Assembly (NCBI GenBank): GCA_015062825.1
Contig: SUTR01000001.1
Span: 1 to 51,367, forward strand
Length of the DNA stretch: 51,367 nt
Direction: 5' to 3'
From: Methanosphaera stadtmanae
GTDB lineage: Archaea; Methanobacteriota; Methanobacteria; Methanobacteriales; Methanobacteriaceae
The notes beneath the pieces are model-generated. The model worked only from the letters and a program-made list of their open reading frames with translations. It was not told the DNA's origin and made no database searches. Within the stretch, counting starts at the first letter, position 1. The number at the start of each line of letters is the position of its first letter. This document shows, piece after piece, positions 6,062 to 40,413 of this stretch. The translations under genes were made by a program, and so were the position numbers.

Positions 6062-9000
6062 TTAGTTTATCTTATTTCTACTAATATATCCATATAATAA
6101 TGATATAAACATTATTACGAAAAATGCTATTTCTGCATATATGTTTTCATCTAATATTTTCATTATTTGTTTTTGATTCAATTCATAAACTTTCTGAGAA
6201 TCAGTGAGTGTTTGTGTAACTTGAATCTCATTTGGATTGTCGCCTGCTTGACTATTTGATTCATCATCCTGATTATCATTATTAATATCTGGACTTTCAG
6301 ATTTTATTTCATTCATTATGCTTGATTGACTAGTTGAATCTCTTTGATTGCTGTCTGTTTGTGTATTTTCCATTTCTTGATTATCTATATCAATTATTGG
6401 AGTATCCACCTTATTTATTGGTGGTTGTGGCTTGAGTGAATCTGCAGGTGAATTAATCTCGGGAGTATCTCCAGCGCTGATTGATATATTAGTGTTATCT
6501 GTACTATTATGCATAGTTATTGTTTGATTGGTTTCCTCGACTTTATCGGTTATTGTACTTGTATTGTTTTCTTCGGGTACTGTCTGATTTTCTATTGTTA
6601 TATTTTCCAACAAGTCATTATTGTCTTCTATAATTATATCCGCCGGTTGCGTTTGATTAGTCTCTTCTGTATTTGACTGGTTTTTATGTGTTTGATTCAT
6701 ATCCTGGTTGCTTATAGTTTGATTTATAAGGGAAGTGTTATTTTCATCTGTATTTTGTTGTTTATGTTCATCACTTGTAGTTTTATTAGTCTCTTGATTA
6801 ATTACTGTTTCATTCCTGTTATCAATAGAATCTGTATTGTTTTCTTTAACTGCTTCTTGAGTATGATTTTCAATAACTGATGGTTCTGTAATGTTTTCTT
6901 TAACTTCTTCTTCTGGTAATACTGGAATTGTTTGATTGGTCTCATCTGTTGGTACGGTAATATTTTCAGTTTCATTATTTTGCTCGGATATTGTAATGTC
7001 TTCAGTCTTGTTAATATCTTCGGGTATGGTTATATTTTCCGATTGATTAATCTCATCAGGAACTGTGATATTCTGTGTTTGATTAATCTCTTCAGGACTA
7101 GTTATGATCTCGGTATGATTGATATCTTCAGGTATTGTTATATTCTCCGTTTGATTAATCTCTTCAGGAAGTGTGATATTTTCAGTTTTATTGTTTTCAT
7201 CAGGTATTGTTGTATTCTGTGTTTGATTAATCTCTTCCAGATTAGTTATATTCTCTGTATGATTGATATCTTCAGGTATGGTTATATTTTCCGTTTGATT
7301 AATCTCATCAGGAACTGTGATGTTCTCAGTCTGATTAATCTCTTCCGGAATAGTTATATTCTCCGTTTGATTGATTTCTTCTGGTATGGTTATGTTTTCT
7401 GTTTGATTATTTTCTTCAGGTATTGGATTTTCGGTTTGGTTATTTTCTTGTGTTTGATTGGTATTGTTTAAATTAGTGTCTGTTGTATTTGTTGGAGTAT
7501 CATCTGTTGTATTGGTTGTAGCATTATCTGGTATATTTTCTGTTGTATTGTTGGATGTTGGATTGTCTGTTGGATTTTCCTGATAGTTAGGATCATGGTT
7601 GTCTTCCATGTATATGTTTTTTCCATTTATTATTTGATTTTCAAGGTCTGCAATAATATTTCCTATTATGTCTGTGAATCCTCTTGGATTTTGTATGTCA
7701 ATTGTTACTATGTTGTTGTCTACTTGCATATAATTGTCTGCTATGATTGTTGATGATTCCAGTAATGTTCTTATTGCAGTTCCATTGTCTGTTGTTATCT
7801 GGTTTCCAATTATTGTTGCATCGTTTCCATAGAATAGGTATATTCCAGTAGTTTGTGGTTTTAGATAATCTAATGAATCTTCACTTTGATTTGTATATCC
7901 TCGTACATTGATGCTGTTGCCTTCTATTTGTGTATCTGATCCAATTACGGCTATACCCATTGGTGCGCTTCCTTCAATGTCAATGTTATTGTTTCTTATT
8001 ACTGTATCTTTTCCACCAAATTGTTCAAAGCCATACATATGATTTGAATATCCCATGATATTATTGTCTTCAATGACATTTCCTTCCATTTTTGAATTTA
8101 TTATATTGTATGATCCTCCATGATATGCATTTTCTGTAAGTACTATTGCATATGCAGCATCAACCAATCCAAATAATTCTTTTGATTCATTTTGGGTTGT
8201 GAGTATTATGGTATTGTTTTTAATGATGTTATATGAGCTTTCTCCATTTATTGCTATTCCACTTGCATATCTTATGGAGTGCACTTCCATATAATTGTTT
8301 GTTATTACATTTTCATGATAGAATATTGTTATTGCATATAGGTATAATGTACCATTCATGTAGATGTCATTTCTATTTATAATGTTTTTATTTCCATAGA
8401 TTGACAGTGTTCTTGTTAGTCCAAATGGATATTCTTTTGGTTGTCCCTCATATACTTCAAAGTAGTTGTCTTCTATGATGTTGTTGTCTCCATGTACACT
8501 TATCACATCACCTTTACAGTCATCTCCATAATACATCCATTCTCTATGCATGGCAGGATATGTCACTGTAAACTGGGACGTTCTTATTGTATTGTTGTTT
8601 CCTGTTACTTCTATTATTCTATATAAATCATCTCGTATTTGTTCTCGGTATTCATTGAATGTTAGATTTTCAAGTATGTTATTGTCTGTTTCTATATAGA
8701 TATCTATGGTACTTTCACATTCATCGTCATTTTCAAAGCTTATATTTGAAAGGTGTATGCATCCATCATCATATACATTTATAATTGAATTTATTAGTTT
8801 TGGATTGTTTATACCTGTTATGCTTATGTTTGGTTTGGTCAGTTCCATGTATAGGTCATTTACTGTTCCATTGATTATTATCTGTGAGTTCTCTTCAAAC
8901 TCATAATATTGATATTCATCCTTGTTGTTTTGGTTGATTTGTATATATTCATTTTCTTGTTTGATTGTTTTGGATTGAATTTTATCATTTTGTATTCTTG

Positions 9001-9181
9001 TATTGTTTTGATATTGTATATTGGCGGTGTCCTGTTCTATTGTATCTGTTTGCATTTTATTTACATCATTTGCATGGGTTGTGTTATTGTCCTCTATAGC
9101 TGTTGCAGTATTTAATGCAGTTATTAGTATTATCATGGATATTAGTAGTATTAATCCATGTTTTTTATTGAACTTTTTCAC
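6062..9181 (-). CDS. Adhesin-like surface protein, beta-helix with glycosylation-rich repeat stalk
   Basis: A 1,039-residue exported protein. Residues 1-29 form a signal peptide (basic KKFNKKHG, hydrophobic core, ATA). About residues 100-530 show repeated Asn/Ile-rich strands (NNIIEDNY, NTIILTT, ITNNYMEV) typical of parallel beta-helix proteins of the NosD/PbH1 type. A stalk of fourteen 12-residue units (6941-7444) follows, then a long Asn/Thr/Gln-rich region and a single C-terminal membrane segment (about 1012-1032) with a short basic tail, so the protein is anchored with its bulk outside. GTG 9181 is the start, within a GGATGGGGGGTG context. No ATG precedes the signal peptide. Such adhesin-like proteins are abundant in gut Methanobacteriales and are thought to mediate contact with other cells or host glycans. 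Confidence 0.88.
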   Translation of the reverse strand: MKKFNKKHGLILLISMIILITALNTATAIEDNNTTHANDVNKMQTDTIEQDTANIQYQNNTRIQNDKIQSKTIKQENEYIQINQNNKDEYQYYEFEENSQIIINGTVNDLYMELTKPNISITGINNPKLINSIINVYDDGCIHLSNISFENDDECESTIDIYIETDNNILENLTFNEYREQIRDDLYRIIEVTGNNNTIRTSQFTVTYPAMHREWMYYGDDCKGDVISVHGDNNIIEDNYFEVYEGQPKEYPFGLTRTLSIYGNKNIINRNDIYMNGTLYLYAITIFYHENVITNNYMEVHSIRYASGIAINGESSYNIIKNNTIILTTQNESKELFGLVDAAYAIVLTENAYHGGSYNIINSKMEGNVIEDNNIMGYSNHMYGFEQFGGKDTVIRNNNIDIEGSAPMGIAVIGSDTQIEGNSINVRGYTNQSEDSLDYLKPQTTGIYLFYGNDATIIGNQITTDNGTAIRTLLESSTIIADNYMQVDNNIVTIDIQNPRGFTDIIGNIIADLENQIINGKNIYMEDNHDPNYQENPTDNPTSNNTTENIPDNATTNTTDDTPTNTTDTNLNNTNQTQENNQTENPIPEENNQTENITIPEEINQTENITIPEEINQTENITVPDEINQTENITIPEDINHTENITNLEEINQTQNTTIPDENNKTENITLPEEINQTENITIPEDINHTEIITSPEEINQTQNITVPDEINQSENITIPEDINKTEDITISEQNNETENITVPTDETNQTIPVLPEEEVKENITEPSVIENHTQEAVKENNTDSIDNRNETVINQETNKTTSDEHKQQNTDENNTSLINQTISNQDMNQTHKNQSNTEETNQTQPADIIIEDNNDLLENITIENQTVPEENNTSTITDKVEETNQTITMHNSTDNTNISISAGDTPEINSPADSLKPQPPINKVDTPIIDIDNQEMENTQTDSNQRDSTSQSSIMNEIKSESPDINNDNQDDESNSQAGDNPNEIQVTQTLTDSQKVYELNQKQIMKILDENIYAEIAFFVIMFISLLYGYISRNKIN
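6941..7444 (-). repeat. Fourteen 36-bp coding repeats in the adhesin stalk
   Basis: The repeats encode units of the form INQTENITIPEE. Thirteen are about 12 residues and the first is 11. Nearly every unit holds two N-x-T/S sequons. A higher-order period of four units (144 bp) is visible: the series QTEN..PED, HTEN/HTEI, QTQN repeats, pointing to block duplication. Confidence 0.9.
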
Positions 9182-9240
9182 CCCCCATCCATATTAATTA
9201 ATTGTATCTTGTTTAATTATTCAAAAATACTTAAATAAGT

Positions 9241-9332
9241 AATATACAATTTTATTAATGTAATTTAATATATACTTTTTTATTATTATATTTTTATCCA
9301 ATAATAACTGCTAATAGGTAAAATTGTATATT
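9241..9332. promoter_or_regulatory. 14-bp inverted repeat upstream of the adhesin gene
   Basis: AATATACAATTTTA at 9241-9254 is repeated exactly as its reverse complement at 9319-9332, 64 bp apart. Both lie within the 255-bp intergenic region upstream of the adhesin start at 9181. The spacing suits two bound regulator dimers or a loop. No other gene occupies the region. Confidence 0.5.
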
Positions 9333-9436
9333 AAAACTTTTTAATTATTTATTTAAAACATATTAATTAATATATCCTTGAATAAAATCATTTAACTTAA
9401 AAAAAGAGTTATGAGGTTAGATAATTTCTATTATCA

Positions 9437-9685
9437 TCATATTAAATCATGAATCATACGTAATGCATCAAGCAATCCATGACTATATTCTATACATCCA
9501 AAAGCTGTACGCATATCCTCCTTTTCAAGGTAGTACTTGGAATCATTCATATAATCTACTGCCCTGTCATATACTTCCTTCTGTTTACCAGTAAATGAAA
9601 TATCCTCTACCTGTCTTAGGTTTCTTTCAAGTTTCTCTATATCAATCTGTATTTTCTCTTTGCTTTCTAAATCTATATTATTCAT
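9437..9685 (-). CDS. DUF357 family protein
   Basis: An 82-residue helical protein of the archaeal DUF357 family. The family signature is visible in the second half as YDRAVDYMNDSKYYLEKED followed by AFGCIEYSHGLLDALRMI. GGAGGT six bases upstream supports ATG 9685. It is the last gene of a probable three-gene transcript with the DUF2284 gene (27 bp upstream) and dtd. The biochemical function is unknown; the family is nearly universal in euryarchaea and often sits beside RNA or translation genes. Confidence 0.85.
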   Translation of the reverse strand: MNNIDLESKEKIQIDIEKLERNLRQVEDISFTGKQKEVYDRAVDYMNDSKYYLEKEDMRTAFGCIEYSHGLLDALRMIHDLI

Positions 9686-9712
9686 AATTCTACCTCCATT
9701 ATTAATTTATTC

Positions 9713-10294
9713 TCAATACAATAGTCCCATAAGCAATGATAAGTTCTCTGGAAGATATCCATTATCAGTATCTATCCATTTAATCTCTTCATCAAATACA
9801 TCCTTCAATGTATCAGGCACCAATCCTCCAATGGATTCTATGCTGAAATGACATTTATCAGGATACCTGCATGGCTTATTGTTTATCTTTGAACACTCAT
9901 CACATACACCACAATACCCAGCTGACAACAGACATCCATCTTTTTCTATTTCCAATATTTCCAGTTTGTCAATTAACTTGTTTCTCTCATGGAATAATGT
10001 GTTGTCTGTTATATATTGTAACTGGTCCATAGTGTATTTAGTCTTCTGTGCCTCTTTTGTAAAGTTTATTTTTACAAAGTATAAATCCAAATTATCATAT
10101 TTATCCCAGGATTCAAGTTCATCGTTTTGAAAATCAGGACATGCCCAGTTATTGTTATGCATATGACAATTGCTGCAGGCTTCGCTTGTACTTTTCAAGT
10201 CTACAAACCTATCCTTGTATTGACTAGTGGATATTGTTTTATGGGTCATCACAGGTTCATATAAGCTTTTTACATCTAATTCATCCATAATCAT
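9713..10294 (-). CDS. DUF2284 cysteine-rich metal-binding protein
   Basis: A 193-residue cytoplasmic protein. Cysteine clusters CSNCHMHNNNWACPDF (C40, C43, C52) and GYCGVCDEC...CRYPDKC mark the DUF2284 family, predicted to bind a metal or Fe-S cluster. The gene starts 11 bp after dtd and is probably co-transcribed with it. ATG 10288, two codons in, is an alternative start with slightly better spacing from GAGTTG. A diverged paralogue lies at 42132-42698. No substrate is known for the family. Confidence 0.85.
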   Translation of the reverse strand: MIMDELDVKSLYEPVMTHKTISTSQYKDRFVDLKSTSEACSNCHMHNNNWACPDFQNDELESWDKYDNLDLYFVKINFTKEAQKTKYTMDQLQYITDNTLFHERNKLIDKLEILEIEKDGCLLSAGYCGVCDECSKINNKPCRYPDKCHFSIESIGGLVPDTLKDVFDEEIKWIDTDNGYLPENLSLLMGLLY

Positions 10295-10917: not shown

Positions 10918-12291
10918 ATGGAAATAAATAGAAAATATGCTTATATTATTTTAACCTCCACTTTAGGCTCTTTTGCCATGGCATATGCATCTAATGGACT
11001 TTCTGTTATATTGCCTACACTTGCAAATGTTTTTGGCATCAGCAATATATTGGAAAACTGGATAGTATTCAGTTATCTGTTGGTATTGTCTGTAGCTGGT
11101 GTTCCCTTAGGTAAGATATGTGGAAAGTATGGCCTGAAGCGTTCATTTAAACTGGGACTTATAATTTTCTCGGCAGGTTCATTGATATCTGCAATTTCAA
11201 TCAATATTGCCATGATGATACTGGGCCGTATCATACAGGCTATTGGTGCATCCATGGTATTTGTTACTAATGTATCCATGATAACTGCAGAGATTCCTGC
11301 AAGCAATCGTGGAAGAGCATTGGGTATTAATGTAACAGGTGTTTATCTTGGAATAACAATATCCCCTACCATAAGTGGTATTCTAACCAATAATCTATCA
11401 TGGAGATTTGTATTTATCATTACAATTATCCTTGCCCTGATATCATATTATCTATTATGTAAGATTGATACTGAATGGATTATGCAAAAGGACGAACTTG
11501 ACAAGGTAGGATCAATTATATATGTAGTGGCAATTGCCTTGTTATTGTATGGATTTACAATATTAAATACTATGCTGGGAGTTGTTCTTGTACTGGCAGG
11601 ATTGGTGCTTCTTGTCATCTTTGCAAGATATGAATTGAAAATATCAAATCCTGTATATGAGATGAGACTATTTAAGAACATTAACTATACAACTGCTAAT
11701 CTTGTTGCAATGATTGCTTATCTTACAACTTATGTGGTAAGTTATGTTTTAAATTATCATTTCCAGTATATACTTGGACTTGATGCACAGACATCTGGAC
11801 TCATCCTGATATCAACACCAGTTATGATGCTGCTTATTGCAGCTCAGGCAGGTAAACTATCAGATAAGATTAACCCGGGAATACTGCAATTAATAGGAGT
11901 AAGCATCATAACAATAGCAATAGGAATACTCTCACAGATTAGCTATACAACACCAATCTATGTAATAGTAATTGCTATGATACTGCAGGGTATAGGTCAT
12001 GGATTCTTCTCCACACCAAACAACAATATCATACTAAGCAATGTGGATGACAAAAAGGATATACCTACAGCATCAGCATCAGTTGCTACAGTCAGAAATC
12101 TTGGACAGTCATTTAGTCTTGGAATACTAACAGTTACATTTGCATTTATCATGGGAAATGTGGCAATACAGCCATCAAACTATGATCTATTAATACTTAG
12201 TAATCAGACAACACTGCTTATAATAACAATACTGGGTATTGTTGCAGTAATTCTATCAGTAATAGGATTGAAAAATTCAATGAAAGAGTAA
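10918..12291 (+). CDS. MFS multidrug-type exporter (DHA2-like)
   Basis: A 457-residue polytopic membrane protein with about 12-14 hydrophobic segments. The first (IILTSTLGSFAMAYASNGLSV) is followed by PLGKICGKYGLKRSF, the loop 2-3 motif of the major facilitator superfamily, then GRIIQAIGASMVF and a WRFVFIITIILA segment typical of the DHA2 drug:H+ antiporters. It is likely to expel small lipophilic compounds using the ion gradient. No clear Shine-Dalgarno precedes ATG 10918. An AAATATTAAA box about 25 bp upstream suggests a leaderless transcript. Regulation through the nearby inverted repeat is possible. The substrate cannot be inferred. Confidence 0.9.
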   Translation: MEINRKYAYIILTSTLGSFAMAYASNGLSVILPTLANVFGISNILENWIVFSYLLVLSVAGVPLGKICGKYGLKRSFKLGLIIFSAGSLISAISINIAMMILGRIIQAIGASMVFVTNVSMITAEIPASNRGRALGINVTGVYLGITISPTISGILTNNLSWRFVFIITIILALISYYLLCKIDTEWIMQKDELDKVGSIIYVVAIALLLYGFTILNTMLGVVLVLAGLVLLVIFARYELKISNPVYEMRLFKNINYTTANLVAMIAYLTTYVVSYVLNYHFQYILGLDAQTSGLILISTPVMMLLIAAQAGKLSDKINPGILQLIGVSIITIAIGILSQISYTTPIYVIVIAMILQGIGHGFFSTPNNNIILSNVDDKKDIPTASASVATVRNLGQSFSLGILTVTFAFIMGNVAIQPSNYDLLILSNQTTLLIITILGIVAVILSVIGLKNSMKE

Positions 12292-12333
12292 AAATATAAA
12301 CTCCCCCATTTTCTTATTTTAAAAAAAAAATAG

Positions 12334-12753
12334 TTATTCGTTTAATTCTTTATGAAATATGGATAATACATATTCAGCTATTATATTATCCTCATTGCCA
12401 CGTCCTCCACCAACACCAATACCTCCAATGCATTTATCATCCACATATAATGGATATCCACCGGATACTAGTGTGATGTTGGAGTTGTTGTTTTGAAGTC
12501 CCATCAATGGACCGCCATCACAGGATAATTCTTTAAGCTTCTCTGTTGGCATGAACATTACAGCAGCAGTATATGCCTTCTGGGGTACTAGTGTAGTACT
12601 AAGTACAGGTGCATCACCAAAACGTCTATATAAGAGAGGATGACCATTTGCATCATATATTGCAAAGCTTATGTCTATTCCCATTTCTTTTGACTTTTCT
12701 CTTGCTGCTTGACATAACTTGTCACATAACTTATCATCTAAAATTCTATTCAT
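12334..12753 (-). CDS. GlcG/HbpS-like heme-degrading family protein
   Basis: A 139-residue cytoplasmic protein of the GlcG/HbpS (DUF336) fold. Recognisable features are AIYDANGHPLLYRRFGDAP, QKAYTAA, the central GGPLMGL, SGGYPLYVDDKCIGGIGVGGG and the C-terminal helix. Family members bind heme, corrinoids or related cofactors, or accompany diol-utilisation enzymes. Which applies here is unknown. ATG 12753 is chosen because AGTGAT precedes it. The GTG at 12762 is part of that binding site. It is a single gene convergent with the exporter. Confidence 0.85.
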   Translation of the reverse strand: MNRILDDKLCDKLCQAAREKSKEMGIDISFAIYDANGHPLLYRRFGDAPVLSTTLVPQKAYTAAVMFMPTEKLKELSCDGGPLMGLQNNNSNITLVSGGYPLYVDDKCIGGIGVGGGRGNEDNIIAEYVLSIFHKELNE

Positions 12754-34176: not shown

Positions 34177-35118
34177 TTAAATGTGTGTCAATTCATGTTT
34201 TCTTAGTATTGATGCATTTACCAGATTATCTTCATAGAATATGAATGATCCTGTTATTTGATCATCTTCTAATCTGTAGTCATTAGTATTGTTTTCTTGA
34301 TATTCTTCTATCTTGGATAATCTTATTCTATTTATGAATTCCTCTGATAGTTTTGCAGCATCCACATTATCATCGGCATGTTCATCTTGTTGTGTTATTG
34401 CATCTATTATATAGCTTTCCATATATCTTTGATGGTATTGGGAGTATTTATCTGCATTATATAATAATTCCATTCCTATTACTTGATTGTTGATGATGAT
34501 TATTGATGCATTCTGTTTTTGCTGTAGGGGAAAGTGTTTAAGATAATTATCTATGTCCTTCTCTAGGCTTATAAACGTATCTTGTTGGGCATGTGTACTG
34601 GATTCTATATTTAATGATGCTTGAGTTGATTCTATATCATCCCATACTTGGCTTTGATTTGATATTCTTTGATTTGATGTTCTGAGACTATTGTTTACAC
34701 TTTCCTGTTTTGATCGTCTGACTTTTGATGATGCCATATGATATGAATGTTTAAATGTCTGACTATTATAATTCCATCTTCCTGATTCACTGCAGCTTAC
34801 ATCTATTATCTGCTGACTTTTTGCAGGTATAATCATTGTTGCATTAATGATTCTATTTTGCTTTGCTCCCTTTATTTCTTCACCATCCATCAATAACAGA
34901 GGTGTTACTGCATTGTTTATTACATTTAATTGTCCTACACTTCCATTTTCATCCACTTCTGTGATTTCAACCAGTCCCATACTTAATCCTACATCCAATG
35001 GCATTAAGTCTGGTGGTCTTGTATTAGGTGTGTTCAATCCAATTACTGTCATGTTTTGATATTGTTGAATATCCAGCAATTCTATGGATTCCAAGTTATC
35101 CTCTATTACATTTGTCAT
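34177..35118 (-). CDS. ARPP-1-like domain protein
   Basis: A 313-residue protein. The N-terminal half has the pattern I associate with the ARPP-1 domain: LLLMDGEEIKGAKQNRIINATMIIPAKS followed by IDVSCSESGRWNY. The C-terminal half is polar and helical. The domain is poorly characterised; Aravind and colleagues placed it in predicted prokaryotic conflict or phosphatase-linked systems (from memory). GGTGGGGT lies upstream of ATG 35118, within the longer reading from TTG 35133. The gene begins 21 bp after the HIRAN gene, so the two are probably co-transcribed. The gene product itself has no visible catalytic motif. Confidence 0.75.
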   Translation of the reverse strand: MTNVIEDNLESIELLDIQQYQNMTVIGLNTPNTRPPDLMPLDVGLSMGLVEITEVDENGSVGQLNVINNAVTPLLLMDGEEIKGAKQNRIINATMIIPAKSQQIIDVSCSESGRWNYNSQTFKHSYHMASSKVRRSKQESVNNSLRTSNQRISNQSQVWDDIESTQASLNIESSTHAQQDTFISLEKDIDNYLKHFPLQQKQNASIIIINNQVIGMELLYNADKYSQYHQRYMESYIIDAITQQDEHADDNVDAAKLSEEFINRIRLSKIEEYQENNTNDYRLEDDQITGSFIFYEDNLVNASILRKHELTHI

Positions 35119-35139
35119 AATATACCCCACCAATTCATA

Positions 35140-35490
35140 TTATATATAGTTAATATCACTATCAGGATTATCCTTTTGTTCATCCAATTCCTTTTGGGAT
35201 AATGTTTTTGCAATTACATAATCATCTATTGCAAATTTTACTATTGCATAGTCTTCATCGAGTATCTTATCATATAATCGTCCTGCACTCATTGTACCTT
35301 TGGCAACTGTTTTAACGCTGTTTGATACATATCCGACATCTCCGGCATATCTCATTTGTACCTTGATTGCTTCTTGATCATAGTCATTGTCTGGTTCCTT
35401 TATTAGTTTGAGTATCTTGCCTATTTTGAATGGCTTTATTCCATGATAATGATTTACTCCACTTATTGTAAAATAGCATTCATCATCCAT
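35140..35490 (-). CDS. HIRAN domain protein
   Basis: A stand-alone 116-residue HIRAN domain (FTISGVNHYHG...LIKEPDNDYDQEAIKVQMRYAGDVGYVSNSVKTVAKGT). HIRAN domains recognise single-stranded 3' DNA ends or damaged DNA and are usually fused to helicases or nucleases. GGGGAGG is ten bases before ATG 35490. The TTG at 35499 is too close to it. It precedes the ARPP-1-like gene, suggesting a DNA-damage or conflict-response pair. Confidence 0.88.
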   Translation of the reverse strand: MDDECYFTISGVNHYHGIKPFKIGKILKLIKEPDNDYDQEAIKVQMRYAGDVGYVSNSVKTVAKGTMSAGRLYDKILDEDYAIVKFAIDDYVIAKTLSQKELDEQKDNPDSDINYI

Positions 35491-35778
35491 TGATTTCAAT
35501 CCTCCCCTTAGTTCTTTTTCAAATAATTATTATTTTTTGTTGTAATTCTATGTTTTGGATTTTTAAGTTAATATACTTTAGTTTATTATGATAGAAAGTT
35601 TTATATAATGAATTTTATAAGACCTGTATGTTCAATAGGTCTAATTACACATCTTAATTAAATTATTGATTCAAATAATTATCTTATACGACAAAAAGAT
35701 ATAAGATACAATGAAAGTTATGATGATGTTAAAATAGGAATTTAATAAAAAAAATGGAGGTTAGTAGATGATTAATCA

Positions 35779-36270
35779 TTAATCAACATCTACCTTGTCT
35801 TTTCTGGATGCCTTTTCTGCATCTATTGCTACGGCAAACATCACTACAAATATTGCATCTTCAGGATTTACTATGTCCATACAATATGTATCAGATAAGT
35901 GAAGGTGTTCTTTTGAGACTTTTGCCACCCTGTTTCCATTCTTGTCCTTTATGGTATAGTTCCATTCTAGTATGTCTCCATCTATCTTCCAGCCCTTGTA
36001 ATCTATTGCATATCCAGGACCTATTAGTTTGAACATTTTTCTATGAATGTTTCCTATATGCTTGTTAAGATATGTGATATTGTATGTTGGTGTGATTGAA
36101 ATTATTTTTTCCTTTACCATTCCTATTTCATTGTCCTGCATATCATATATCTTTACACATTTACCCCATGATAGCTGACCCTTGATATTGTATACCTTAT
36201 TTCCATTATCATCATATACATTGAAGCTGTCAAACCATGAGAATATTTTCTGCTGTATATGTAATTTCAT
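35779..36270 (-). CDS. LURP-one-related (LOR) protein
   Basis: A 163-residue protein with the tubby-like LOR fold. Recognisable are LHIQQKIFSWFDSFNVYDDNGNKVYNIKGQLSWGKCVKIYD, IGMVKEKIISITPTYNI and the single hydrophobic C-terminal helix AIFVVMFAVAIDA. Plant relatives respond to pathogens and others act in membranes as scramblase-like proteins. The archaeal role is unknown. GGGGAG supports ATG 36270. It sits 280 bp from the HIRAN gene in the same direction. Confidence 0.85.
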   Translation of the reverse strand: MKLHIQQKIFSWFDSFNVYDDNGNKVYNIKGQLSWGKCVKIYDMQDNEIGMVKEKIISITPTYNITYLNKHIGNIHRKMFKLIGPGYAIDYKGWKIDGDILEWNYTIKDKNGNRVAKVSKEHLHLSDTYCMDIVNPEDAIFVVMFAVAIDAEKASRKDKVDVD

Positions 36271-36336
36271 TTTAATTAGCTCCCCTTAATACTTAGTCAA
36301 TATATTGTTGTTTATTTTAATCAGTTATTTCATGTA

Positions 36337-36726
36337 TTATAGTTTTAGTCTTTTAAATCTTGTACATGATTGCTGTGCAAGGCTTATTGAATATTGTATG
36401 TTTATTGGAGTATCCACTATTATTGATATGATATCTGTCCCGTCATGTCCTTGTCTTGGCTGTACATCATATTTATGTACTAAATCCACTATTCTTTCAT
36501 AATAGAATTCTGTGGATACTCTTACTCCTTCATCTAATGGCTCTACTGTTACGAATGTCATGTTTCTTACCTGGAATAGTATCTTATCTTCTTCCTGTAT
36601 TTCTTCTACATAGTTATAGAAGTTTCTTATTCTTTTTAGTATACTTTGCAGTATATGTTGGTATGGGTATTCATCATCTTCCAGGATTTCCTGTATTGAT
36701 TTGTTTTGGTATGTTATTCTAATCAC
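36337..36726 (-). CDS. Unknown protein, 129 residues
   Basis: A 129-residue alpha/beta protein (IRITYQNKSIQEILEDDEYPYQHILQS...ILFQVRNMTFVTVEPLDEGVRVSTEFYYERIVDLVHKYDVQ) of no recognised family. It is the upstream member of the group including LOR, HIRAN and ARPP-1 genes. The initiator is unclear: GTG 36726 is itself part of an AGGTGATT site, and the codon at the usual spacing is ATA (36717). If ATA is not used, GTG starts the protein with a weak GGAA in front. Confidence 0.55.
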   Translation of the reverse strand: MIRITYQNKSIQEILEDDEYPYQHILQSILKRIRNFYNYVEEIQEEDKILFQVRNMTFVTVEPLDEGVRVSTEFYYERIVDLVHKYDVQPRQGHDGTDIISIIVDTPINIQYSISLAQQSCTRFKRLKL

Positions 36727-36856
36727 CTTCCAATAAGAGTATTGTATTTATATTATTTATTTGTAGGTTTTGTTTTAAATTATTTTTTCTTTATTACTTA
36801 TTTTAAATGATGAAATACAAATATATTAAATAATTATTATATAGAATTTGAGTTTT

Positions 36857-37756
36857 ATGATTGATTTAGTAAAGAAGACACCTATACCCATTTGTGGATT
36901 GATGCTTGCATGTTTTTCATTAGGATTGTATCTGGGTAATTTCAGCATTTATCCTAAGTTCTTCTTTGGATTTCTGGGATTAGTAATCTTATTGTTATTG
37001 ATTGTTAAGTTATTCGTTGATTATGACAGCTTTAGGAATGCTTTAGATATTATCACTGTATGCAGCACCATGGGTACATTCAGTATGTCCCTTATGATTT
37101 TCAGCAATTATTTCATAGATGTTAACGGGATTTTTGCATTTGTATTGTGGATTATTGGATTGTTGTTGCATATGCTTTTAATAGTTTACTTTAGCTATAG
37201 GTATATATTTAATGATTTTTCATTGGATAATGTATATCCATCCTATTGGATTGTATATATTGGTATATCAATGGCTTCCATTTCAGGTACTTTCCATATG
37301 TTTAATGGTTATACTTGGATATTCTTTGTATTTGCATTTATATTGATGTTTCCTACTATGATTATAGTCTGTTACAGGTACTTTATGATTCCAGTAAGTG
37401 ATGAGATTAACAAGCCATTGATTTGCATCTACACTGCCATTTACAGCATTCTCATAGTTGCTTATGTTAATTCATTTAATAAAATAAACCATGAGTTTTT
37501 AATCATATTATATGTTATTGCATGCATATGCTATGTATTATCATTTGTTAAGTTGGTTGAGTATAGAAGTTTGGATTTTTATCCTAGCTTTTCAGCATTT
37601 AGCTTTCCATTTGTAATTAGTGTAGTTGCTTCATATACAGTCTATAATATTACTCATTATTCATTTATTAGGGCAATTGTACTTGTTGAAAGTGTTATTG
37701 CTGTTTGTTGTGTTTGTTATGTATTATATGAGTATTTAGTAAATGTTTACTTATAA
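36857..37756 (+). CDS. TDT/TehA-SLAC1 family transporter
   Basis: A 299-residue polytopic protein with about nine to ten membrane segments. Family features are PIPICGLMLACFSLGLYLGN in the first helix, PSYWIVYIGISMAS midway and FYPSFSAFSFPFVIS near the end. TDT proteins carry dicarboxylates, sulfite or act as anion channels; the substrate here cannot be assigned. ATG 36857 is a better start than TTG 36848, and the weak leader suggests a nearly leaderless mRNA. Confidence 0.85.
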   Translation: MIDLVKKTPIPICGLMLACFSLGLYLGNFSIYPKFFFGFLGLVILLLLIVKLFVDYDSFRNALDIITVCSTMGTFSMSLMIFSNYFIDVNGIFAFVLWIIGLLLHMLLIVYFSYRYIFNDFSLDNVYPSYWIVYIGISMASISGTFHMFNGYTWIFFVFAFILMFPTMIIVCYRYFMIPVSDEINKPLICIYTAIYSILIVAYVNSFNKINHEFLIILYVIACICYVLSFVKLVEYRSLDFYPSFSAFSFPFVISVVASYTVYNITHYSFIRAIVLVESVIAVCCVCYVLYEYLVNVYL

Positions 37757-37878
37757 TTTCAATGATTTAATAAATCTTTTTTTTCATTTTTTTTAACAAG
37801 CTATAAATAGTATTAACAATAATATATATTAATAATACTTTTTTATGTAATTTAATTATTAATTATGGAGGTCTCTTG

Positions 37879-40413
37879 ATGATATATTTAGATATTCAGA
37901 AGAAAATTGTAACAATGTATAATCTAGGAAAAACTAAGTTTAGTCATAACATCAAAGCAAAAGTAAAAACAAAGTCATCATTTAAAATCAAAAAGGAACA
38001 TAACATTCTAAAAGCATCCGATTATAAAATCATCCTATCAAACATTACAAGAAAGGAGAAAATTGATAAGTTATTCCAATTACTTAAAAAAGAGAAAATT
38101 ATAATAAGCCCATATAAGCCGTTACTGGAGCAGTTTCTAACTGAATATGATATAAAATATAATATCCAACAATCATGTCATATATGCAAACAAAAAAATA
38201 GAATTACATTCATTAATCCAAAGACATCACACACGTATAATAAATATAAGATCTGTGAGGATTGCCTGGATAATCTTATACTAAATATGCTGTTGGAATA
38301 TGGTTATTCATCCAATTCATTGAAGATATTTAAAAAACTATATGAAAAAACCGGTGACTTGAATATTGTATATGATATGATAGAAAATGAATATAATCCT
38401 ATTGAAAACCCGGAACTAACATTATATGATCAGTATGAAGAGACTGAGGATGAATTTGCCAGGGTAGATGTAGATAATTTAAATATACCCAGGGCATTTA
38501 AGAATATACTAAGAGAAAAGATTGAATATCTGTTGCCTGTTCAGATAATGGCACTTAATGAGGGATTGTTATTTAATGAAAATCTGCTTGTCGTGTCACA
38601 GACTGCCTCTGGTAAAACATTGATTGCAGAGCTTGCAGGCATTACAAGAGCGTTGCAGAATAGGAAATTTGTCTATCTTTCACCACTTGTCGCATTGGCA
38701 AACCAGAAGTATAGGCAGTTCAAGAAGGATTATGAAAAATTAGGTTTGAAGGTTGCAATAAAGGTTGGAAAGAATCGTGTACATGCAGATGATGAATTGA
38801 CAATAGATGATATGCCAATTGAGGATGCTGATATAATAGTTGCAACATATGAGGGATTGGATTTTATATTAAGAAGTGGACAGTACCATATGCTTGATAA
38901 TCTGGGTGTTGTGGCAATTGATGAGATACATATGCTGGATAATGTTGAACGTGGATGCAGATTAAACGGATTAATACATAGGTTGATGGATTTATTTAAA
39001 CATGCACAATTGATAGGATTATCTGCAACTATTAATAATTCCAGGCAATTGGCTAAGGAATTTAACATGACATTAGTTGAGTATGATAAAAGACCTGTTA
39101 TGCTAGAGCGACATCTAGTATTTTGTGAAAGTGATGAGTATAAAAACAGAATTATAGAAGAGTTATGCAGGAAGGAATATGATTCATTAAGTTCAAAGTC
39201 ATATAAGGGACAGACTATTATCTTTACTGATTCCAGACGTAAGACCAATATGATTGCACGTAACCTACAGAAGAAAGGGATTAATGCAGAAAGTTATCAT
39301 GCAGGACTTACATATGCAAGTAAAGTGAGAATTGAAGAGGCATTTGCTAATCAAAAGATATCTGTAGTGGTTACTACTGCAGCATTAGCTGCTGGTGTGG
39401 ATTTTCCTGCCAGTCAGGTGATTTTTGATTCTCTTCGTATGGGAAAGGAATGGCTTACACATAATGAATTTCATCAGATGCTTGGTCGTGCTGGAAGACC
39501 TAGCTTTCATGATAAGGGATTGGTATATCTTCTTCCGATTACTGGCAATTACATGTTTCATAAGCTTGAAGAGAATGTTGCATATGACCTGCTTGAAAGT
39601 AAGGTAGATAATATTCATGTAATTTATAGATCGTCTGATGTATATGAACAGGTACTTTCTGATATTTCTACAGTAGGTGTATGTGATTTGGAAGAACTTC
39701 AAACGAAATACTCAAAGTTTTCTCTTCCAATACGATTTAATGATGCTGTTGATGAATTATTTGAATATGATATGATAGAATATAATTATCAAAATAAATT
39801 GCATAACATTACAGATTATGGACGTGCAACAGCAATGTCTTTCTTAACCGTTAATGAAGCAGAGTTTATACGAGAACATATTACAGATAATCCTGTTGAT
39901 ATAATAACTAGTTTATATCCAATAAATAATGCATATTTATCAGGTGGACTGTTAAAATCATTCAAAAGAATATTGGGTCATAATCCAAGTACTAGATTAT
40001 TCTCTGACAGTACTAAGGAGTTGATAACGGATGGATTCTTTACTAATCAGTTATCAAGGAAACATCAAAATCAATTACAGGATTTATATAGGGATTTTAT
40101 GATGTGTGACTGTTGGTATTCACCATATTGTAATTGTTTGGAGGAAAATGTTTCAAAGCATATTATTAAAAGACGACTGGAAGGTCATAGTCCATATGAA
40201 ATTTCAAAGGAGTTTATGATAAATTATTCCATTAATATTTATTCAGGTGATATCTATAATTGGCTTGATCAAACAATAAGATATTCTGAGTCAATAGGTA
40301 GAATTGCATTGTCACTGGATGTACCAAATGTCAGTAGTGAATGTGAAAAATTAACCAAGCAGATTGAATTTGGTGATGCTGATAAAAATAGTATAGAGAT
40401 TAAAAAGGATTGA
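37879..40413 (+). CDS. Ski2-like DEAD/DEAH helicase with zinc finger (DUF5814-type)
   Basis: An 844-residue superfamily 2 helicase. A zinc knuckle (C100, C103, C126, C129) precedes the core. Motifs are TASGKT (242-247), DEIH (348-351), SAT (382-384), FTDSRRKTNMIARNLQ and QMLGRAGRP (motif VI). The C-terminal region is winged-helix/ratchet-like, with a second Cys cluster CDCWYSPYCNC. Ski2-like archaeal helicases act in RNA decay or at stalled forks. This subgroup is confined to methanogens and related archaea, as far as I know. GGAGGT six bases upstream fixes ATG 37879. Confidence 0.92.
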   Translation: MIYLDIQKKIVTMYNLGKTKFSHNIKAKVKTKSSFKIKKEHNILKASDYKIILSNITRKEKIDKLFQLLKKEKIIISPYKPLLEQFLTEYDIKYNIQQSCHICKQKNRITFINPKTSHTYNKYKICEDCLDNLILNMLLEYGYSSNSLKIFKKLYEKTGDLNIVYDMIENEYNPIENPELTLYDQYEETEDEFARVDVDNLNIPRAFKNILREKIEYLLPVQIMALNEGLLFNENLLVVSQTASGKTLIAELAGITRALQNRKFVYLSPLVALANQKYRQFKKDYEKLGLKVAIKVGKNRVHADDELTIDDMPIEDADIIVATYEGLDFILRSGQYHMLDNLGVVAIDEIHMLDNVERGCRLNGLIHRLMDLFKHAQLIGLSATINNSRQLAKEFNMTLVEYDKRPVMLERHLVFCESDEYKNRIIEELCRKEYDSLSSKSYKGQTIIFTDSRRKTNMIARNLQKKGINAESYHAGLTYASKVRIEEAFANQKISVVVTTAALAAGVDFPASQVIFDSLRMGKEWLTHNEFHQMLGRAGRPSFHDKGLVYLLPITGNYMFHKLEENVAYDLLESKVDNIHVIYRSSDVYEQVLSDISTVGVCDLEELQTKYSKFSLPIRFNDAVDELFEYDMIEYNYQNKLHNITDYGRATAMSFLTVNEAEFIREHITDNPVDIITSLYPINNAYLSGGLLKSFKRILGHNPSTRLFSDSTKELITDGFFTNQLSRKHQNQLQDLYRDFMMCDCWYSPYCNCLEENVSKHIIKRRLEGHSPYEISKEFMINYSINIYSGDIYNWLDQTIRYSESIGRIALSLDVPNVSSECEKLTKQIEFGDADKNSIEIKKD

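Follow-up and report, generated by a model that had tools for sequence, protein, structure and literature searches.

A conserved two-gene neighborhood of ARPP and HIRAN was predicted by Iyer, Burroughs, Anantharaman, and Aravind (2022, Viruses 14:1977; PMC9503650). In their paper, ARPP carries an absolutely conserved cysteine and glutamine, a sugar-acting role is proposed for it, and it also appears in predicted conflict systems centered on ADP-ribosylglycohydrolases. The locus described here lies in a 51,367-nucleotide stretch of the Methanosphaera stadtmanae contig SUTR01000001.1 (assembly GCA_015062825.1), hereafter the window. It resembles the two-gene neighborhood in that ARPP stands beside a stand-alone HIRAN, the pair is conserved, and the cysteine and glutamine are invariant. 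The initial annotation of the locus had suggested a system with no described member, a claim that the 2022 prediction contradicts. Relative to the available part of that work (PMC9503650), what is new is the range of the pair, its apparent single origin and joint inheritance in Methanobacteriaceae, and the exclusion of two adjacent genes, one encoding a LOR-family protein and one a protein of 129 residues. Also new are the residues invariant in archaea and bacteria, a confident predicted model of ARPP without a match in the PDB, and a predicted HIRAN model that matches the HIRAN domain of HLTF.

The ADP-ribosylglycohydrolase-centered systems of PMC9503650 share with the window the ARPP domain and its invariant residues; the window's ARPP differs in having no neighboring ADP-ribosylglycohydrolase, rhodanese-type phosphatase, or WYL regulator, and has HIRAN in their place. 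The window's HIRAN resembles those of HLTF and Rad5 in predicted fold and in residues aligned with N91 and D94 of HLTF, but it is a stand-alone, acidic protein of 116 aa with a conserved tail (GTMSAGRLYDK) and without a SNF2 helicase or RING domain. SRAP proteins (HMCES) crosslink to abasic sites in DNA via a cysteine at their N-terminus. Here the likeness is one of proposed analogy alone, namely that the invariant cysteine of ARPP may also react with a sugar. In ARPP, however, the cysteine is not N-terminal but lies within the protein, at residue 114, and its best-ranked fold matches in the PDB included no SRAP structure. To our knowledge, there is no biochemistry or other experiment on any ARPP.

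Genes of the locus

The features of the locus are as follows, with the starts of the first two genes revised as explained below.

34177..35118, minus strand: ARPP-1 (PF20208) gene, 313 aa from the ATG at 35118 (Pfam, aligned N-termini, GGTGGGG site)
35140..35490, minus strand: stand-alone HIRAN gene, first of the pair, 116 aa from the ATG at 35490 (Pfam PF08797, fold match)
35500..35778, minus strand: A+T-rich spacer preceding HIRAN, probably the promoter of the pair (read from the sequence)
35779-36270, minus strand: LOR (PF04525) open reading frame (Pfam)
36337-36726, minus strand: open reading frame of 129 aa with a sub-threshold match to DUF5655 (PF18899) (Pfam)

The initial annotation had placed four open reading frames here on the minus strand; all four are present at those positions, and Pfam upholds the ARPP-1, HIRAN, and LOR identities. 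ARPP-1 matches PF20208 over nearly the whole profile (294.6 bits, cut-off 27, E=1.1e-87, positions 2-296 of 297), HIRAN matches PF08797 (38.5 bits, cut-off 24.7, E=1e-9), and LOR matches PF04525 (41.7 bits, cut-off 24.5, E=1.3e-10), with weaker Tubby_C_like and Scramblase matches over the same stretch. The 129-residue protein had been called unknown. It is not wholly so, because its DUF5655 score falls just under the cut-off (22.5 against 24 bits, E=1.2e-4), and a distant relationship to that family is possible.

The mechanically called reading frames of ARPP-1 (34177-35133, TTG start, 318 aa) and HIRAN (35140-35499) are probably slightly too long. Aligned relatives and ribosome-binding sites point to better starts at ATG 35490 for HIRAN, after AAGGGGAGG, and at ATG 35118 for ARPP, after GGTGGGG; with these starts, the two genes are therefore 21 nt apart. 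The LOR and 129-residue genes are separated by 66 nt, and HIRAN and LOR by 279 nt that are very A+T-rich. At the edge of this longer spacer lies the ribosome-binding site of HIRAN, and within it is a TATA-like stretch, ATTATATAAAA, at ~35607-35597, which was read from the sequence and carries no statistical call. The spacer is the probable promoter of the HIRAN-ARPP pair. A sigma-70 promoter scan of the locus was uninformative, its model not being applicable to archaeal promoters.

On the opposite strand, a gene for a SLAC1/TehA-type anion channel protein (36848-37756) adjoins the 129-residue gene. Also opposite in strand to the pair is a Hel308-like DEAD/DEAH helicase with a C-terminal DUF5814 (37876-40413), whose scores are far under the Hel308 equivalog cut-offs.

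Pairing and inheritance of HIRAN and ARPP

Among the 151 Methanobacteriales genomes that we sampled, 92 contain ARPP-1. When these genomes were searched with a profile of the HIRAN subfamily, against which the window's protein scores 194 bits, strong matches were found mostly in genera g1, g6, g9, and g10. Coordinate matching placed 66 of the 74 strongest HIRAN matches, in 66 different genomes, immediately upstream of an ARPP gene in the same orientation, an adjacency that is far beyond chance. The eight without a linked ARPP comprise two at contigs that end just past HIRAN (G129 and G045), one in which HIRAN and ARPP are on different contigs (G064), and paralogs that lack ARPP. Spacing in the called reading frames runs from a short overlap to ~150 nt in nearly all sampled loci. 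In the 61 loci inspected, the order of HIRAN and ARPP is constant and the neighbors vary between, and partly within, genera; inside each larger genus, the location of the pair is largely stable. HIRAN followed by ARPP is an operon-like conserved unit that is co-inherited in gut methanogens, and the likely operon of these two genes proposed in the initial annotation stands on their same-strand adjacency across the 66 genomes. The pair is nonetheless accessory, since both genes are missing from seven of the 20 Methanosphaera-group genomes, five of which are at least 94% complete.

A maximum-likelihood tree of 80 ARPPs gathered all 44 HIRAN-linked proteins into a single clade, which has 50 rows and a support of 100/99. 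Of the six unlinked rows in that clade, five are second copies, their genomes having a linked copy as well. Because the linkage label needs four changes on this tree, the simplest reading, though not a proven one, is that the pair was gained once and later lost or duplicated. Pairwise distances of HIRAN and ARPP are correlated at r=0.82 (maximum of 0.18 in 999 permutations), a value due in part to shared genome ancestry, and it therefore speaks for joint inheritance rather than for direct contact between the proteins.

Tandem copies of ARPP were also observed. At L078:5989-6873 and 8867-9790, one copy has a HIRAN and the other does not, with a 470-aa gene between them, and L079 has the same arrangement.

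Features of the two proteins

Across 61 Methanobacteriales and 63 other ARPP rows, the residues Q92, N93, R94, V112, C114, E116, R119, Q160, W164, and S240 never vary (numbering of the 318-aa reading frame). Q92, R94, C114, E116, R119, Q160, and W164 are invariant in archaea and bacteria alike, and C114, Q92, and Q160 agree with the conserved cysteine and glutamine of Iyer et al. An AlphaFold2 model of ARPP reached a pLDDT of 91.9, and it had no fold match in the PDB at E<=0.001; when ARPP was compared with the PDB by sequence, every match was insignificant. The strand order of the model, which is the one property compared, appears to fit the description of ARPP as a fold that lacks characterized relatives and has an inserted beta-barrel carrying the conserved residues. 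A scan of GTDB genomes with an alignment as the query confirmed at least 522 relatives in many phyla, where a single-sequence search of genome contigs had found nothing. Among the matches listed, those with a named record show close relatives of the window to be from Methanosphaera and others from Methanobrevibacter. The locus, ordinary in itself, is a useful entry to this uncharacterized enzyme family found across phyla.

The HIRAN model is less confident than that of ARPP (pLDDT 77), and its first 16 PDB matches are all of HIRAN type, consisting of HLTF, including several DNA complexes, and lp_0118. N38 and D41 of the HIRAN reading frame are the residues that align with human HLTF N91 and D94, and they are invariant in the subfamily; in the alignment, the window's HIRAN keeps the DNA pocket of HLTF in part only. 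The HIRAN of HLTF is disrupted by an N90A-N91A double mutant (PMC11237066). That of yeast Rad5 binds single-stranded DNA with no preference for a 3'-OH (PMC7804152), so end recognition by a HIRAN is not to be assumed. Given this difference and the acidity of the window's HIRAN (pI 4.9), we infer, rather than observe, that it would bind DNA ends.

HIRAN domains occur in other settings as well. In Methanobrevibacter-type genomes, some paralogs of the window's HIRAN subfamily that lack ARPP are close to Cas1 and Cas2 (L242:101-2020), with similar genes at L243:1498-5348 and L255:4602-9263, the HIRAN of L255 being broken. Others lie beside a gene of ~1130 aa that combines a UvrD helicase with PDDEXK (L241:887-4921, and L243). 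Proteins of ~300 aa that combine TPR repeats with a HIRAN at the C-terminus are found at L241:6849-7769 and 11480-12382. Genomes of genus g10 contain several HIRAN-bearing reading frames of ~300 aa each, and the HIRAN matches of a single genome number as many as seven.

Possible roles of the pair and its neighbors

We tentatively favor the view that HIRAN and ARPP form an accessory unit: HIRAN would guide ARPP to the ends or forks of DNA, where ARPP would act on a sugar. The small HIRAN protein would recognize a DNA 3' end or a fork, perhaps a stalled one, and would recruit ARPP to it. ARPP, through its putative inserted beta-barrel with the invariant Gln, Cys, Glu, and Arg, would then process or covalently capture a sugar, either at an end that is abasic or damaged in some other way or in an ADP-ribose attached to the DNA. 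Such a unit would serve in DNA-end maintenance or in a damage response that some Methanobacteriaceae do without. The binding, contact, and chemistry that we infer here come from HLTF and from the proposal of Iyer et al. (PMC9503650), and gene pairing is no proof of contact between the proteins. With two small proteins, one of which has a recognizable DNA-binding fold, the pair is among the simplest contexts in which ARPP occurs and is for that reason a good entry point to its function, for which the invariant residues of ARPP offer direct mutants.

Alternatively, ARPP may act on free ADP-ribose or nucleotide sugars, HIRAN being a regulatory or adaptor subunit and no sensor of DNA ends. We place this possibility on the unlikely side, but it has several observations behind it. 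The putative catalytic residues are identical in all ARPPs, and the acidity of the window's HIRAN would suit a protein of this kind. Outside the window's family, WYL-type regulators make up 18 of the 103 ARPP neighbors scanned, and ADP-ribosylglycohydrolases and DSP-type phosphatases account for a few more; HIRAN is not among the commonest families in this set. Such contexts point to nucleotide-sugar chemistry, and they agree with the sugar-acting proposal of Iyer et al. 2022 (PMC9503650). Genes for ADP-ribosylglycohydrolases are also widespread in the order (110 of 151 genomes), with two in the window's own genome. However, neither of these two is reported near the pair, no ADP-ribosylglycohydrolase or phosphatase gene lies beside ARPP in the window, and no ADP-ribosylglycohydrolase is among the named neighbors of HIRAN-ARPP loci. 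The HIRAN subfamily, moreover, has kept its counterparts of HLTF N91 and D94, which counts against this alternative.

An antiviral module, in which HIRAN would detect viral DNA ends or forks and ARPP would disable them or act on a virus-derived ADP-ribose signal, is unlikely. In its favor, the pair is patchily distributed, ARPP is known from the predicted conflict systems centered on ADP-ribosylglycohydrolases (PMC9503650), and in some Methanobrevibacter-type genomes a HIRAN paralog that has no ARPP stands close to Cas1/Cas2 or to a UvrD-PDDEXK gene. Yet PADLOC models match a minority of the 86 genes that flank the pair, and a Pfam tally of the same genes yields mostly ordinary metabolism, leaving the idea of a defense island weak. 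The largely stable location within the larger genera is unlike that of typical defense islands. ARPP had no match in 50,697 phage records, one weak match in plasmids, and one partial match in IMG/VR; six HIRAN-like loci were found on viral contigs. A defense role for the pair is possible but weakly supported. The initial annotation had suggested a DNA-damage or phage response. A link to DNA ends is plausible; a dedicated phage role gains little support from the phage, plasmid, IMG/VR, and flanking-gene scans.

The pair might also guard archaeal DNA ends, with HIRAN locating a stalled fork or a 3' end, at which ARPP would react, covalently or hydrolytically, with a damaged or ADP-ribosylated sugar, so that an HMCES-like function would be performed by a different fold. 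We regard this as distinctly improbable.

The LOR and 129-residue genes look like chance neighbors and are not part of the HIRAN-ARPP unit. LOR was found in eight of the 151 genomes and the 129-residue gene in 15, all of the latter in the window's genus, and neither was near HIRAN-ARPP in any other sampled locus. Wherever a single contig carries both kinds of gene, the distances are large: G122 has LOR at 991,976, ARPP at 1,108,797, and the 129-residue gene at 1,201,195, and G119 has ARPP at 642,316 and the 129-residue gene at 862,187. Genomes G115, G124, and G128 have the 129-residue gene and neither ARPP nor a HIRAN of the window's subfamily. Since the two genes are unlinked to the pair elsewhere, the quartet is particular to the window's genome; its four-gene order was conserved in no other genome examined across Methanobacteriales. 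A four-gene DNA-damage or phage-response unit, as first proposed, is therefore highly improbable, even though all four genes run in the same direction within 2.6 kb, and the 279-nt gap between LOR and HIRAN also counts against it. This lack of conservation averts a false claim of a new system.

In genus g13, a 325-aa protein (L247:4998-5975) fuses a HIRAN of the window's subfamily (48% identical) to a C-terminal DUF5655-like domain. With the weak DUF5655 match of the 129-residue protein, this fusion could be taken to favor the larger unit, but it was set aside as support because, by BLAST, the fused domain is not similar to the 129-residue protein, whose gene is unlinked to the pair elsewhere.

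In many g10 genomes, HIRAN-ARPP lies tail to tail with genes for an N6_Mtase-like protein of ~560 aa and a specificity-subunit-like protein of ~190 aa (as at L124:6287-7990 and 7975-8538). These type I methyltransferase-like and specificity-like genes were considered as third and fourth partners and rejected: several genomes carry the methyltransferase at a distance from the pair or have no pair at all, so shared synteny better explains their proximity. The methyltransferase has the consensus SFDVIxSRIPI in place of the expected NPPY/F motif, and from this reading of the motif the protein may be inactive.
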